Positions 6,065 through 11,122 of a DNA stretch of 64,000 bases are shown here, in pieces. The notes beneath the pieces are model-generated. The model had not been told where the DNA came from and did no database searches. It worked only from the letters and a program-made list of their open reading frames with translations. Location of the stretch: assembly GCF_006517275.1 (NCBI RefSeq), contig NZ_CP041191.1, positions 2,661,001 through 2,725,000 of the forward strand, read 5' to 3'. Source of the stretch: Labrenzia sp. PHM005 (GTDB lineage Bacteria; Pseudomonadota; Alphaproteobacteria; Rhizobiales; Stappiaceae). The stretch's first letter is position 1. The number at the start of each line of letters is the position of its first letter. A program made the position numbers and the translations under genes.

Positions 6065-8746
6065 ATGATTGTCGACTGGATTGCAAATGTTGGCGCGCTT
6101 TCTTTTGGTGCTCTCGCCTACTATTTCTTTGCGCGCCGCGAAACTCTCCAGAAAAACCGGCCTCTGGGCATCGCCTCTCTTGGCATCCTCTTCGGTGCCT
6201 TGTCGGCGCTGGTGGTGTTAATGCCGGTGCATATCTCCGATGGGTCTACGTTTGACACGCGCGGCGGTCCCGCGATCCTGGCAGGCTATTTCCTTGGTCC
6301 GGTCGGCGGTCTGATTTCTGCCGGAATTGCGAGTGCCGCGCGCATTTGGGTGGGAGGGCCATTTGTAATAGGTGGGGCACTAAGCCCATTTGTTTACATG
6401 TTTTTTGGGACTTGGTGCGGATCATATTGCGCTTACCGGAAAACAGGTCCCAGCCCCTTACGTTTATTGGCAATGGCTGTTCTTGGTACGATTGTCATTC
6501 TGCCCTGTTTTTTTATCGATCAGGGGATCGAAGTCGGGTTCTCAGTCCTTCAAAATGCCTGGTATCTCCTACTCCTTGGCAATATTGCCGGTGTCGTAAT
6601 CCTGGGGACAATGGTCGGGGAAGCACGCCGATTTGCGAAAGAGCACTCGGAACTCAAGACGACGATGCGGTTAGCAGATCTCGCGCGGTCTTCAGCAGGA
6701 ATAGCTATTTGGCGATTTGACATGGATGCCAACCGGCTGATCTGGGATGAGGCCATGTTCAAATTGTTTGATGTCGATCCAGCGACGTTCCATGGTGAGT
6801 TTAATGATTGGGAAAAAACTGTTCATCCAAGGGATTTAGGTGCTGCGCGAGAGGCATTTGTTACCGCATATGAGCATAAATCGCCGTTTGCCACAGAATT
6901 CAGGATCATATTGCGCGATGGAACTATCCGGTGGATTACCGCCCACTGCGATTTTGTAGAAGATGACGACGGTAAGGTCGTTGAAGCGGTTGGTGTTAAT
7001 TGGGATGTAACGGAAGAGAAAACTCTCGCAAAAAAACTAGCTGAGCAAGAACAAGAAGCCCGCCTTCGGTCAGAGGAACTCGAAGTGACACTGGCATCTG
7101 TGGTTCAGGGTGTCAGTGCTTTTGATGCCGATGGCAACCTTCGCTTCTGCAATACAAAGGTTCCAGAAATTACGGGTTTATCCAAGGATCGGCTTGTACC
7201 AGGCGTTTCAAGTGAAGATTACAACAGCTACCGCGCCGGTGCGGTCATCTCGGACTTTCACAATGGGACGAACCTAAGTTCGCCAGGCAAGGATTGGCCT
7301 GAAACTCATGTGCGGTCCCTCATTCATTTGGTCAGTGGCCGGATTTTGTCATTTTCAGCCGCACCAATGCCCAACGGAGGTTGGGTGGAAACTTATGAAG
7401 ATGTGACTGAAAAGGCGATCGCGGACCAACGTGTCAAAAAAGCAGCGGAAACTGACACTCTGACGGAACTGGCGAACCGCTTGTCTTTTAAAAACGCCCT
7501 AGACACGGCGTTAGCAAAAGCGCACAGGGAGGACGTTGACGATCAGTTTTTGTTGCTCATCGATCTGAACGACTTCAAAGCGGTGAATGACAGTTTCGGG
7601 CATATTGTCGGAGACCGTTTGCTTAAACATGTAGGCGAGGTTCTCAGGGCTATTGCTTCTGGAGGAGATCATGCAGCGCGGCTTGGAGGAGATGAATTTG
7701 CGCTGATTATGACTTCAACGAGTGAAGCGGACGTACACCACATTGCCAAAAGCCTTTGCACTCAGTTTGCAGCGCCCGTCGATCTTGGCGGTTTGGTGAT
7801 CAACAGCGGTCTATGTGTCGGGATTGCGACAATCCTGCCCGGTTACACCGAATCTGAACAAATTCTGTCGCGCGCAGATTTGGCGCTGTACAAAGCCAAA
7901 GCCGAAAAAACATCCACGTACCGTTTTTATAACTTGGAAATTGCTCGGGAAGAAGCAGAGCGGCGGCAGACCAAAAGTGCACTCATTCAGGTAGTGCGGG
8001 ACAGGGGTTTAGATGTCTATTGTCAGCCGATTTTGAACCTCGAAAACAAATCCGTAGACCATTTTGAAGCGCTTGTGCGCTGGAATAAGGATGACGCACA
8101 TTACTTGCCGCCATCGAACTTCATTCCGTTGGCTGAAGAAATTGGTTTGATATCCGAAGTCGGGGACTTCGTTCTGACAGAGGCCTTGAAGGCGCTTTCG
8201 AGTTGGCCGGACGGCCTTTACGCGTGTGTCAATGTGTCTGTTCTCCAGTTAGGCAATGGGCAATTCGTGGAGAAAGTCACTAATGGCTTGCAGGCGTATG
8301 GGATACCCCCGCACAGGCTTGAACTCGAGGTGACAGAAAGTGTCGTGATGTCAGCGGGCTCGGGTGCACACGAGGATTTACGCAAACTGCGGAATGCGGG
8401 CCTGACCCTGGCTCTAGATGATTTTGGGACTGGCTTTTCCTCTTTTGGATACCTTCAGGATCTCCCTTTCAACAAGCTGAAGATAGATCGCAGGTTCGTC
8501 TCTGAAGTCGATACCAGCGAAGGCAGTGCTTCCATTTTGCGCACCTTGGCAGCGCTTGCCCGTAATCTTGATATGACCTGTACGGCCGAAGGCGTGGAGA
8601 ACGCCAGCCAATTGGACTTTGTGTCCAATTGCGGGTGCCACTATGCGCAAGGCTATTTTATTGGACAGCCGATTCCCATTGATGATGTCCCGATCATTCG
8701 GTCCGCTGTTCCTGCAGGTTCTGCGGCGCAGCCTGCCAGCGTCTAG
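6065..8746 (+). CDS. Membrane sensor with 5TM-LYT, PAS, PAS, GGDEF and EAL domains
   Basis: 893 residues. The N-terminal 190 residues form five or six membrane helices with the conserved stretch DTRGGPAILAGYFLGPVGGL typical of the 5TMR-LYT sensor domain. Two PAS modules follow (about 205-320 and 335-455, the first ending in the PAC-like GVNWDVTEEK). The GGDEF domain (about 460-620) has an intact ARLGGDEF active site but no RxxD inhibitory site five residues upstream. The EAL domain (about 635-885) retains FEALVRW and DDFGTGFSSFGYL. Both cyclic-di-GMP synthesis and hydrolysis motifs are therefore present; which dominates cannot be read from sequence. ATG at 6065 has GGAG upstream. It is monocistronic, flanked by hairpins. 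Confidence 0.92.
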   Translation: MIVDWIANVGALSFGALAYYFFARRETLQKNRPLGIASLGILFGALSALVVLMPVHISDGSTFDTRGGPAILAGYFLGPVGGLISAGIASAARIWVGGPFVIGGALSPFVYMFFGTWCGSYCAYRKTGPSPLRLLAMAVLGTIVILPCFFIDQGIEVGFSVLQNAWYLLLLGNIAGVVILGTMVGEARRFAKEHSELKTTMRLADLARSSAGIAIWRFDMDANRLIWDEAMFKLFDVDPATFHGEFNDWEKTVHPRDLGAAREAFVTAYEHKSPFATEFRIILRDGTIRWITAHCDFVEDDDGKVVEAVGVNWDVTEEKTLAKKLAEQEQEARLRSEELEVTLASVVQGVSAFDADGNLRFCNTKVPEITGLSKDRLVPGVSSEDYNSYRAGAVISDFHNGTNLSSPGKDWPETHVRSLIHLVSGRILSFSAAPMPNGGWVETYEDVTEKAIADQRVKKAAETDTLTELANRLSFKNALDTALAKAHREDVDDQFLLLIDLNDFKAVNDSFGHIVGDRLLKHVGEVLRAIASGGDHAARLGGDEFALIMTSTSEADVHHIAKSLCTQFAAPVDLGGLVINSGLCVGIATILPGYTESEQILSRADLALYKAKAEKTSTYRFYNLEIAREEAERRQTKSALIQVVRDRGLDVYCQPILNLENKSVDHFEALVRWNKDDAHYLPPSNFIPLAEEIGLISEVGDFVLTEALKALSSWPDGLYACVNVSVLQLGNGQFVEKVTNGLQAYGIPPHRLELEVTESVVMSAGSGAHEDLRKLRNAGLTLALDDFGTGFSSFGYLQDLPFNKLKIDRRFVSEVDTSEGSASILRTLAALARNLDMTCTAEGVENASQLDFVSNCGCHYAQGYFIGQPIPIDDVPIIRSAVPAGSAAQPASV

Positions 8747-8776
8747 AGCGCGTCGCAATTTATTGAGATGCGCTTT
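8747..8776 (+). terminator. Hairpin after the GGDEF/EAL gene
   Basis: AGCGCGTC and GATGCGCT (8747-8754 and 8767-8774) pair over 8 bp with one wobble immediately after the stop codon, followed only by TTAGTT. A plausible but weak terminator. Confidence 0.35.
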
Positions 8777-8805
8777 AGTTCCAAACACGGATACCTGAAT
8801 TTGGC

Positions 8806-8834
8806 AAAAAAAATGCCGGGTCAAAGACCCGGCA
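8806..8834 (-). terminator. Rho-independent terminator of the candidate sRNA
   Basis: A perfect 8-bp GC-rich stem TGCCGGGT / ACCCGGCA with a 5-nt loop is followed on the minus strand by eight T residues (plus-strand A-run 8806-8813). Textbook intrinsic terminator; it points away from the GGDEF/EAL gene. Confidence 0.85.
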
Positions 8835-8934
8835 GTTTGAATTGATTCACTGTAATCAGTGGAATCACCTTCCAGAGGGGAACAGCTGGTCTGGGTATCA
8901 CTGGGAGGAGGACGTGACACCCGTGTGACCAACA
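8806..8934 (-). ncRNA. Candidate trans-acting sRNA with a CCTCCTCCC anti-Shine-Dalgarno loop (cuckoo/alpha-r14-like)
   Basis: On the minus strand three structured blocks follow each other. First, a 9-bp stem (8914-8922 with 8893-8901, one wobble) presents the 12-nt loop GTCCTCCTCCCA, a perfect anti-Shine-Dalgarno CCTCCTCCC. Second, a bulged hairpin at 8843-8867. Third, an intrinsic terminator at 8814-8834 with an eight-T tail. A TATAAG -10-like hexamer sits just upstream of the first stem. There is no open frame on this strand. The layout matches what is known of alphaproteobacterial cuckoo-type (CcsR, alpha-r14) sRNAs, and could also be compared with AbcR (alpha-r15). It lies downstream of the lsrB/vtlR-type regulator; in Brucella VtlR activates AbcR2. 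The 5' end at about 8934 is estimated from the -10. Confidence 0.65.
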
Positions 8935-8940
8935 GTGATG

Positions 8941-8969
8941 CTTATATGCAGTGCACAAGCTGCATAAAC
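8941..8969 (-). promoter_or_regulatory. Candidate promoter of the sRNA
   Basis: Reading the minus strand, TATAAG (8941-8946) lies about 7 nt before the inferred 5' end. A TTGTTT hexamer is about 19 bp further upstream, a slightly long spacer. The -10 is plausible, the -35 weak; an alternative sigma factor or an activator could be used. Confidence 0.3.
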
Positions 8970-9212
8970 AAGAGGCAGTTGCGCAGATCTGCTATGCAAA
9001 TTGCGCAGAGCTCCCAATTTCCCTTGTTTTTCCGTACTTTCGGCGTGTCCGTACTGAATTAAATAGTGTGCGCTGCAGCAAAGATCCGGTGTTCTTTGCG
9101 GAGTTTTGGGGTGGATGCTGACGAAGTGGACAGGTGGTCTGCCTCGAAATCTCTCATTCTAGCCAAGTAAGATGTTTTGATGCGGACGGCCATTTACCGC
9201 CGATTGTTCGAA

Positions 9213-10109
9213 TCAATAGACCCATTTTTGAGCGTTCTGCAGCAGGAATTCCCGGAAAGCGGTGACACGGGCGGTGTTCTTCAGTTCCGAGGGATAGACG
9301 AAATAGGTGTCAAAAGACGGCACCTTGTCTTCCTGCTCGGCAAGAACGGGAACCAAGTTGGCCCCGCTGTCGATGATGTAGTCCGGCAACATGGCAATGC
9401 CCGCGCCGGTCTGAACCGCCCGTTTGATGGCGATAATGTTGTTGACCTGAAGCACAGACCTCCGGGGACTACCGTCAGCGCGGCCAGCAGTCACCAGCCA
9501 GTTCATTGAGCGCAGATAGGCGGGGGCCTGCTCACCGAAAGTGATGATGCGATGGTCGTCAATCTCTTCGATTGTCGAGGGCGCGCCGAACCGCTGGATA
9601 TAATCCGGTGATGCAAAGACGTGAAAATGCACCGTGAACAGCTTGCGCTGGATCAGATCCGGCTGGGTTGGCTGGCGCAAACGGATTGCAACATCTGCCT
9701 GACGCATGCCGAGGTCAAGCTCATCATCATCGAAGATCAGCTGCAGGTTCACATCCGGATAGATGTCAATGAAACTCCGGATGCGCGTGGCAAGCCAGGT
9801 TGAGCCGAGGCCAACAGTCGTTGTCACACGCAATGTGCCGGACGGTTTTTCCTTGCTGTCCGTCAGGCTTGATTGCACTGCTTCCAGCTTCATCAGCACG
9901 TCGCTGGCAGTGCGGTAGAGCAATTCGCCTTGCTCTGTTAGCAAAAGCCCGCGGGCATGGCGGTGGAACAGGGGCACCCCCAGATCATGCTCAAGCGCAC
10001 TGACCTGGCGGCTGACGGCGGATTGACTCATGTGAAGCGTATCGCCCGCATGGGTAAAGCTGCCCGCTTTAGCGGCCGCATGAAAGATACGCAATTTGTC
10101 CCAATCCAT
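9213..10109 (-). CDS. LysR-type regulator, LsrB/VtlR-like, linked to trxB
   Basis: 298 residues with an N-terminal winged helix-turn-helix (MDWDKLRIFHAAAKAGSFTH, then LHMSQSAVSRQVSALEHDLG) and a LysR effector domain from about residue 90. The order lrp, trxB, lysR is the arrangement known for lsrB of Sinorhizobium and its VtlR relatives in Brucella and Agrobacterium, which control envelope, redox and sRNA genes; orthology here is inferred from context. ATG 10109 is preferred to the preceding GTG at 10112 because AGGGG is then at normal distance. It lies 35 bp after trxB on the same strand and is probably cotranscribed. The candidate sRNA lies 280 bp downstream. A 7-bp hairpin at 9078-9099 sits in between. 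Confidence 0.85.
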   Translation of the reverse strand: MDWDKLRIFHAAAKAGSFTHAGDTLHMSQSAVSRQVSALEHDLGVPLFHRHARGLLLTEQGELLYRTASDVLMKLEAVQSSLTDSKEKPSGTLRVTTTVGLGSTWLATRIRSFIDIYPDVNLQLIFDDDELDLGMRQADVAIRLRQPTQPDLIQRKLFTVHFHVFASPDYIQRFGAPSTIEEIDDHRIITFGEQAPAYLRSMNWLVTAGRADGSPRRSVLQVNNIIAIKRAVQTGAGIAMLPDYIIDSGANLVPVLAEQEDKVPSFDTYFVYPSELKNTARVTAFREFLLQNAQKWVY

Positions 10110-10144
10110 CACAATCCCCTATCCATTCATCTGGGATTACTGTG

Positions 10145-11122
<978 letters not shown>

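Follow-up and report, generated by a model that had tools for sequence, protein, structure and literature searches.

A gene for a divergent AbcR (ar15)-type small RNA, probably driven by LsrB, downstream of trxB-lsrB in Labrenzia sp. PHM005

Results

A predicted small RNA gene follows trxB-lsrB

The DNA analyzed here is a 64,000-nucleotide stretch of Labrenzia sp. PHM005 (contig NZ_CP041191.1, positions 2,661,001 to 2,725,000; hereafter the window). On its minus strand the gene for thioredoxin-disulfide reductase, trxB (10145-11113; TIGR01292, 413 bits), lies upstream of lsrB/vtlR (9213-10112) as it does in A. tumefaciens. The lsrB product is a LysR-type regulator with Pfam HTH_1 and LysR_substrate domains, 299 amino acids long as listed (298 in most relatives) and free of cysteine. 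Its best named homologues are from Roseibium or Labrenzia, and its orthology with LsrB is supported by its place beside trxB, by a sequence 61-67% identical to its counterparts in Sinorhizobium, the Agrobacterium group, and Brucella, and by a tree of 63 LsrB sequences. Beyond the lsrB stop codon, some 280 nt further along the same strand, we predict an sRNA gene of ~130 nt (8806-8935, with the start predicted at 8934-8936), called from its fold, its covariation, and the score of a model built from its relatives (R1, see below). Its neighbours are lsrB-trxB and a GGDEF/EAL gene.

The predicted fold of the minus strand at 8806-8934 comprises a 5′ hairpin in two parts, one further hairpin, and a terminator; its minimum free energy (MFE) is -53.4 kcal/mol, against a mean of -32.6 for 200 dinucleotide shuffles (z -6.1; 0/200 as low). 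The 5′ hairpin, SL1 (8885-8933), has a 9-bp inner stem whose 12-nt loop carries CCUCCUCCC, and it is enclosed by a 7-bp outer stem; both helices covary. The loop sequence (8903-8911) is the first anti-Shine-Dalgarno motif, aSD1, of which UCCUCCC is the conserved part. Between SL1 and SL2 lies a second such stretch, aSD2 (CUGUUCCCCUCUGGA, 8871-8885), which is not fully open because the MFE and centroid structures place its UUCC opposite GGAA in a weak helix of 4 bp and leave CCCUC unpaired. SL2 (8843-8867, from the fold) is variable in sequence. It is followed by an unpaired A/U-rich stretch (8835-8842), a candidate Hfq site on the basis of the fold and of its likeness to ar15 RNAs, in which such a stretch has been described as conserved. 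The Rho-independent terminator (8806-8834; fold, consensus scan, and covariation) is a 9-bp G+C-rich stem followed by T8. The consensus scan lists this stem on both strands, with an unbroken T-run on the minus strand only (the plus-strand tail reads GTTTGAATTG), and it may therefore also help to end the convergent plus-strand gene with its stop at 8746.

The 9-bp stem with its exposed loop, the second hairpin, and the terminator, which the original prediction had placed on this strand, are thus real, and the TATAAG hexamer that it noted before the RNA is present at 8941-8946. It saw no open frame there, and the only frames listed over the RNA are mechanical: a TTG frame of 172 aa on the minus strand (8414-8932), which also crosses the antisense of the neighbouring gene, and a GTG frame of 67 aa on the plus strand (8859-9062). 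We rejected both as coding since relatives differ there by short indels.

The RNA is conserved and covaries in the Stappiaceae

The RNA is present in 61/61 sampled genomes of the family, own genome included. A 281-base DNA query returned the region from 58 of them, and the same RNA was found in the remaining three (G011, G023, and G030) through its promoter pattern and by reading. The lsrB gene lies upstream on the same strand in 53/58 loci (at least 68% identity to the window LsrB; one copy is partial). When longer flanks were fetched, lsrB was also found at four of the other five loci and in G011, G023, and G030, up to 3.6 kb away, so that it precedes the RNA in 60/61 genomes; in the last one, G020, the contig edge intervenes.

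Alignment A1 held 60 copies from 58 genomes, of which four exact duplicates were dropped to leave 56 distinct sequences; the ends of two copies had been adjusted by hand beforehand. The covariation test covered three helices from the RNAalifold structure and excluded its weak hairpin (columns 77-88). In the 56 distinct sequences 98.0% of cells are paired (89.6 on average after shuffling), both-sided changes occur in 14/20 pairs (shuffled 8.1), and sliding the helices by one column lowers pairing to below 40%. Four of the five covariation measures were reached by 0/500 shuffles; the fifth, the number of further pair types, was 28 against a shuffled 26.0 and was reached by 74/500. The covariation in Stappiaceae that had been proposed as a check is hence present, and the stem and the core of the loop are conserved in relatives, as the original prediction requires.

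The two motifs differ in what is kept. TCCTCCC, the AbcR anti-SD core, occurs in 56/56 distinct family copies and the full CCTCCTCCC in only 26/56, while GTTCCCCTCTGGA occurs in 50/56 and is one C shorter in the other 6/56. Two genomes (G038 and G044) carry tandem AbcR genes at a spacing of ~280 bases; an LsrB-type box precedes each of them, and in these copies aSD2 is one C shorter. The AbcR relative of G023 has GTTCCCCAATTGAAGG as its second motif; here aSD2 is changed, with aSD1 and the promoter layout kept.

The promoter has the layout of a putative LsrB target

The consensus scan called no sigma-70 consensus promoter before the RNA. By comparison with relatives we recognized, on the minus strand, a putative LsrB/VtlR box (GCATAGCAGATCT, GCAT-N3-AG-N3-T; 8985-8997), which would span -61 to -49 if transcription starts at 8936, a -35 element CTTGTT 12 nt past the box (8967-8972), conserved in most genera aligned, and a -10 region GCATATAAG 17 nt further on (8941-8949), which includes the TATAAG and whose GCATAT is nearly invariant in the family alignment. 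In S. meliloti, LsrB binds and activates PabcR1, which is reported to have a box GCAT-N3-TG-N3-T at the same -61 to -49, followed by CTTGAC-N17-CTATAT (PMC8844928); the box in this genome has AG where that consensus has TG. For A. tumefaciens the gene order trxB-vtlR-abcR1-abcR2 and direct activation of abcR1 by VtlR have been described (PMC7486931).

Named genomes were then scanned with a pattern holding both motifs, which gave at least 80 loci. We judged 84 of the 85 pattern matches listed, leaving out one that lies 5 bases from the start of its locus. A looser form of the box, GCAT-N4-G-N3-T, was found 40-130 bases before the first motif in 67/84, and the reversed box in 0/84; the 17/84 without a box include one chance match. 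Among the 69 boxes in the named loci listed, 45 are followed by a -35-like NTTG after exactly 12 bases, the spacing also seen here, which was measured in this analysis and not taken from papers. Of the listed named copies, 57 came with 2.5 kb of sequence or more, and 42 of these have LsrB encoded on the same strand no more than 3 kb upstream.

The pairing of regulator and RNA had been offered from position; with the conserved synteny and a box at the published PabcR1 place it is now well supported, and the arrangement indicates that the RNA is very probably under LsrB. We consider it unlikely that the RNA answers to another activator or has a constitutive promoter, the box being a relic or a site for another LysR protein. 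LsrB binding is a prediction, the box is off consensus at one position, and the LsrB here lacks every cysteine used in the proposed redox switch; yet the box and its spacing are kept in all seven genera sampled, and lsrB is linked to the RNA in the 60 genomes counted above. Less credible still is that the RNA has no gene of its own and is released from the 3′ end of the lsrB mRNA by processing. It does lie on the lsrB strand ~280 nt past the stop codon, but the promoter elements within the 60 nt upstream of the RNA belong to the best conserved stretches, the first motif may lie as little as ~0.1 kb from lsrB (in named relatives) or as much as 3.6 kb (in the family), and AbcR1 and AbcR2 of S. 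meliloti have been described as independent units by 5′-RACE.

The RNA belongs with AbcR rather than with the cuckoo RNAs

At gathering score, Rfam finds only a tRNA in the whole window. The Rfam search suggested in the original prediction was carried out and gave 27.1 bits for ar15 (RF02345, cut-off 40) and 26.3 bits for ar14 (RF02344, cut-off 58.8), neither over its cut-off. Since the unrelated anti-hemB model scores 27.8 bits (cut-off 49.5), so that all three lie at 26-28 bits, Rfam alone leaves the family undecided. The accession proposed for the cuckoo model, RF00519, is that of the suhB/mmgR family; ar14 is RF02344. When 150 genomes of the order were searched, ar15 had matches at E <= 0.01 in 22 and exceeded its cut-off in five, with three other family members drawn (G004, G007, and G013) unmatched. 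The copies of the Agrobacterium group, Sinorhizobium, Brucella, and Bartonella score 59-122 bits and that of Roseibium aggregatum 29.7, and no match up to E 1 is listed for the Pseudovibrio and Kaistia loci. The 40-bit cut-off is a detection threshold and not a trait, and homology rests on motifs, intermediates, synteny, and promoter.

The motifs speak for ar15. The aSD2 region CUGUUCCCCUCUGGA agrees letter for letter with the ar15 alignment over its 15 letters, a stretch that the original prediction did not mention. In S. meliloti, CUCCUCCC (aSD1) and UUCCCCUC (aSD2) are reported to be two independent targeting motifs (PMC8844928). The RNA shares with AbcR1/AbcR2 of S. meliloti and Agrobacterium the three-hairpin layout, UCCUCCC in the 5′ loop, UUCCCCUC in the linker within CUGUUCCCCUCUGGA, the A/U-rich stretch, and the terminator, as well as the location downstream of trxB-lsrB with an LsrB-box promoter layout. 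It differs from them in lying under the Rfam cut-off, in the 7-bp outer stem of SL1, for which the family copies show covariation, in having an LsrB partner without the redox cysteines, and in being a single copy where they form a tandem pair; G038 and G044 are the only genomes of the alignment set with a tandem.

The intermediates came from model R1, which was built from the family copies alone. In its own genome R1 gives this RNA 121.4 bits and the next best match 26.4. It was applied to 27 of 29 order-level ar15 loci (one family member and one locus overlapping another were left out) and matched 25/27 at E <= 1.4e-4; of the two misses one had no match and one had E 0.01, and the top-scoring ar15 pair received 34.7 and 32.1 bits. 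Among the 80 named loci listed, of which 79 are alphaproteobacterial by title, R1 matched 79 at E < 0.1, scores that are partly circular because the finding pattern held both motifs. Within those listed, the scores were 116-124 bits for Pseudovibrio and Roseibium, 98 for Cohaesibacter, 60-65 for Kaistia and Tepidamorphus, about 50 for Bartonella and several Mesorhizobium, 45.5 for Brucella endophytica, 43 for Sinorhizobium shofinae, and 39 for the Agrobacterium group. Tandem second copies, picked without the pattern, were matched as well (25.5 bits for an Agrobacterium-group copy, for example). A model of the family copies thus finds predicted AbcR RNAs across the Hyphomicrobiales.

Several candidates were set aside. 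The pattern match in Microtetraspora has neither an R1 match nor a box and was taken as chance. As a second AbcR in this genome, the best other R1 match (C2:314021, 26.4 bits; the next 24.2 bits and below) is a terminator resemblance only, and two weaker own-genome ar15 matches have no R1 match. One AbcR-like copy in another genome (G205) keeps aSD2 and has no TCCTCCC loop, with no LsrB within the 1.5 kb fetched on each side; it resembles the AbcR2 without M1 that has been described for A. tumefaciens.

The original prediction had filed the RNA as cuckoo, the family (ar14) that includes CcsR of Rhodobacter and NfeR1 of S. meliloti. The CCUCCUCCC loop is indeed common to both, and the 26.3 bits of ar14 could be read as pointing to a one-hairpin, CcsR-like RNA that works through CCUCCUCCC and has its place among DUF1127 operons. 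That score is far under the cut-off and no better than that of ar15, however, and the filing fails on several counts. Cuckoo RNAs carry several such hairpins: SmelA075 and SmelA099 have three and four anti-SD hairpins, and NfeR1 is described with three anti-SD motifs, whereas the RNA here has one, plus aSD2. The complete motif is confined to the 26/56 distinct family copies. The true ar14 RNAs of this genome lie elsewhere, at C2:4153189-4153314 (63.1 bits, three CCTCCTCCC hairpins) and C2:4153879-4153993 (56.9 bits, just under the cut-off, two CCTCCTCCC hairpins), and each follows a gene for a DUF1127 protein (Pfam 53.8 and 52.5 bits), a location described as frequent for cuckoo RNAs; R1 gives them 16.6 bits at most. 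DUF1127 genes, of which the original prediction saw none, thus do occur in this genome, away from the RNA, whose adjoining genes are lsrB-trxB and the GGDEF/EAL gene. We regard the cuckoo assignment as highly improbable and chose ar15/AbcR because of the shared CUGUUCCCCUCUGGA, the R1 intermediates, and the presence of real ar14 RNAs elsewhere in the genome.

The same promoter layout precedes DUF1127-cuckoo units

The two ar14 RNAs belong to tandem DUF1127-cuckoo units (C2:4152909-4153314 and C2:4153599-4153993), each of which follows an LsrB-type promoter layout. A strict pattern, GCATNNCWGNNNYGC-N32-34-NYATAT, has four matches in this genome and none for the reversed control. They are the AbcR gene, both DUF1127-cuckoo units, and C2:907156. 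Only two of the four are independent, because the pattern was drawn after we had seen the promoters of AbcR and of the second cuckoo unit. At C2:907156 an ORF of 56 aa begins 100 bases after the start of the box; it looks like DUF1127 by eye and has no Pfam DUF1127 match; the frame just downstream of that ORF is one that we take to be the tryptophan synthase alpha chain.

All 61 family genomes have at least one strict match, with one control match across the whole set. A strict match stands 212-230 nt before an ar14 RNA in 19/19 sampled genomes of the genus of the window. In the other 42 genomes at least two (G018 and G039) have one 48 nt before an ar14 RNA, a count that is a lower bound because it comes from 23 box rows near ar14 picked by eye. 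The occurrence of this predicted layout before DUF1127-cuckoo units is among the more novel observations here.

LsrB of the Stappiaceae lacks the conserved cysteines

The LsrB of A. tumefaciens has cysteines C144, C236, C244, and C273; C144 and C273 are reported to be shared by the S. meliloti and B. abortus proteins, and peroxide resistance to depend on C273 (PMC11975290). Alignment with an Agrobacterium-group LsrB places C144 and C273 at positions 141 and 272 of the window protein. After the partial copy was dropped from the 53 family LsrB sequences, 0/52 have a cysteine at either position (141: V 45, A 4, I 3; 272: V 50, T 1, A 1), and 25/52 have one elsewhere. Both conserved cysteines are found in 30/52 named LsrB.

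In the tree of 63 LsrB sequences (in which Roseibium aggregatum and Pseudovibrio are labelled Stappiaceae), a cysteine at 141 is confined to one group of Rhizobiaceae, Phyllobacteriaceae, and Bartonellaceae (34 rows, 100/100). Outside it are 27 rows without either cysteine and two Kaistia rows with only that at 272. The root of the tree is not fixed, so gain and loss of the cysteines both fit. The pairing of AbcR with lsrB occurs on both sides of this divide. The missing cysteines lower the case for a protein that works like the redox switch, not that for LsrB orthology, and they suggest that an input other than a cysteine redox switch probably drives the LsrB of this family.

Candidate targets

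We searched this genome for GAGGGGAA, which pairs with aSD2, 2-12 nt before an ATG, and found 18 sites and 11 ORFs of at least 60 aa. Six of the 11 encode solute-binding proteins; the other five are a P-II protein, a FadL-type porin, a Crp-like regulator, and two ORFs without a Pfam match. The reversed motif AAGGGGAG gave 26 sites, 18 ORFs, and two binding proteins. The difference (6/11 against 2/18; Fisher two-sided p 0.028) comes from a small test uncorrected for the choice of motif or control, and for any ABC-transporter component it is not significant (6/11 against 5/18, p 0.24). We regard the test as suggestive, favouring binding-protein mRNAs as likely targets.

Discussion

The feature is, with a probability of about 0.86, the gene of a single-copy divergent AbcR (ar15) sRNA that is probably driven by LsrB and would act on translation through its anti-SD stretches; the half-paired aSD2 and the one covariation measure that is not significant lower this figure slightly. 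Such an RNA is ordinary in kind and new in its place and in what it shows about LsrB. From the conserved layout and the work on relatives we infer that LsrB, made from the upstream gene, would bind the box at 8985-8997 and recruit sigma-70 RNA polymerase to start near 8936. The ~130-nt RNA, probably with Hfq (hfq is encoded in this genome), would then offer two separate anti-SD stretches, the UCCUCCC of the SL1 loop and the UUCCCCUC of the linker. By pairing with ribosome-binding sites it would lower translation, above all of mRNAs for periplasmic ABC substrate-binding proteins; a block at these mRNAs is likely, with modest support from the motif test.

The LsrB regulon looks conserved in kind, because the targets of LsrB and VtlR in S. 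meliloti and Brucella resemble the promoter matches found here. In Brucella, where as here the LsrB orthologue adjoins an AbcR gene, AbcR2 and three DUF1127 genes are reported as the main targets of VtlR (PMC12595884), much like our four matches, with the difference that here a cuckoo RNA comes after each of the two confirmed DUF1127 genes and the fourth match is the 56-aa ORF without a Pfam DUF1127 match. S. meliloti LsrB is reported to activate AbcR1 and NfeR1 (PMC10746234), the latter being LsrB-activated as we propose for AbcR here, and the ccaF1-CcsR operon of Rhodobacter is described with an RpoHI/RpoHII promoter (PMC10253847). Among the papers listed in a limited literature search we met no report of LsrB-type control of a DUF1127-cuckoo operon and none joining AbcR with a Stappiaceae name.

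More tentatively, and at odds that we put at somewhat worse than even, the LsrB of the Stappiaceae may be a thiol-independent master switch of a small, mainly anti-SD RNA regulon (AbcR and the DUF1127-cuckoo operons), the cysteine switch of Rhizobiaceae and Brucellaceae having been added to an older LsrB-AbcR circuit that answered another, probably metabolic, signal.

AbcR RNAs limit nutrient-uptake genes in rhizobia and Brucella, and the present locus would extend this regulator-sRNA circuit of symbionts and pathogens to marine bacteria in which the ar15 model falls below its cut-off, with R1 as a tool that finds the divergent RNA. A single predicted promoter layout would tie the VtlR control of DUF1127 genes in Brucella to the DUF1127-cuckoo operons known from Rhodobacter. 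Because the sampled Stappiaceae keep the RNA and its promoter layout without the two conserved cysteines, it becomes testable in this family whether LsrB is at root an oxidant sensor.
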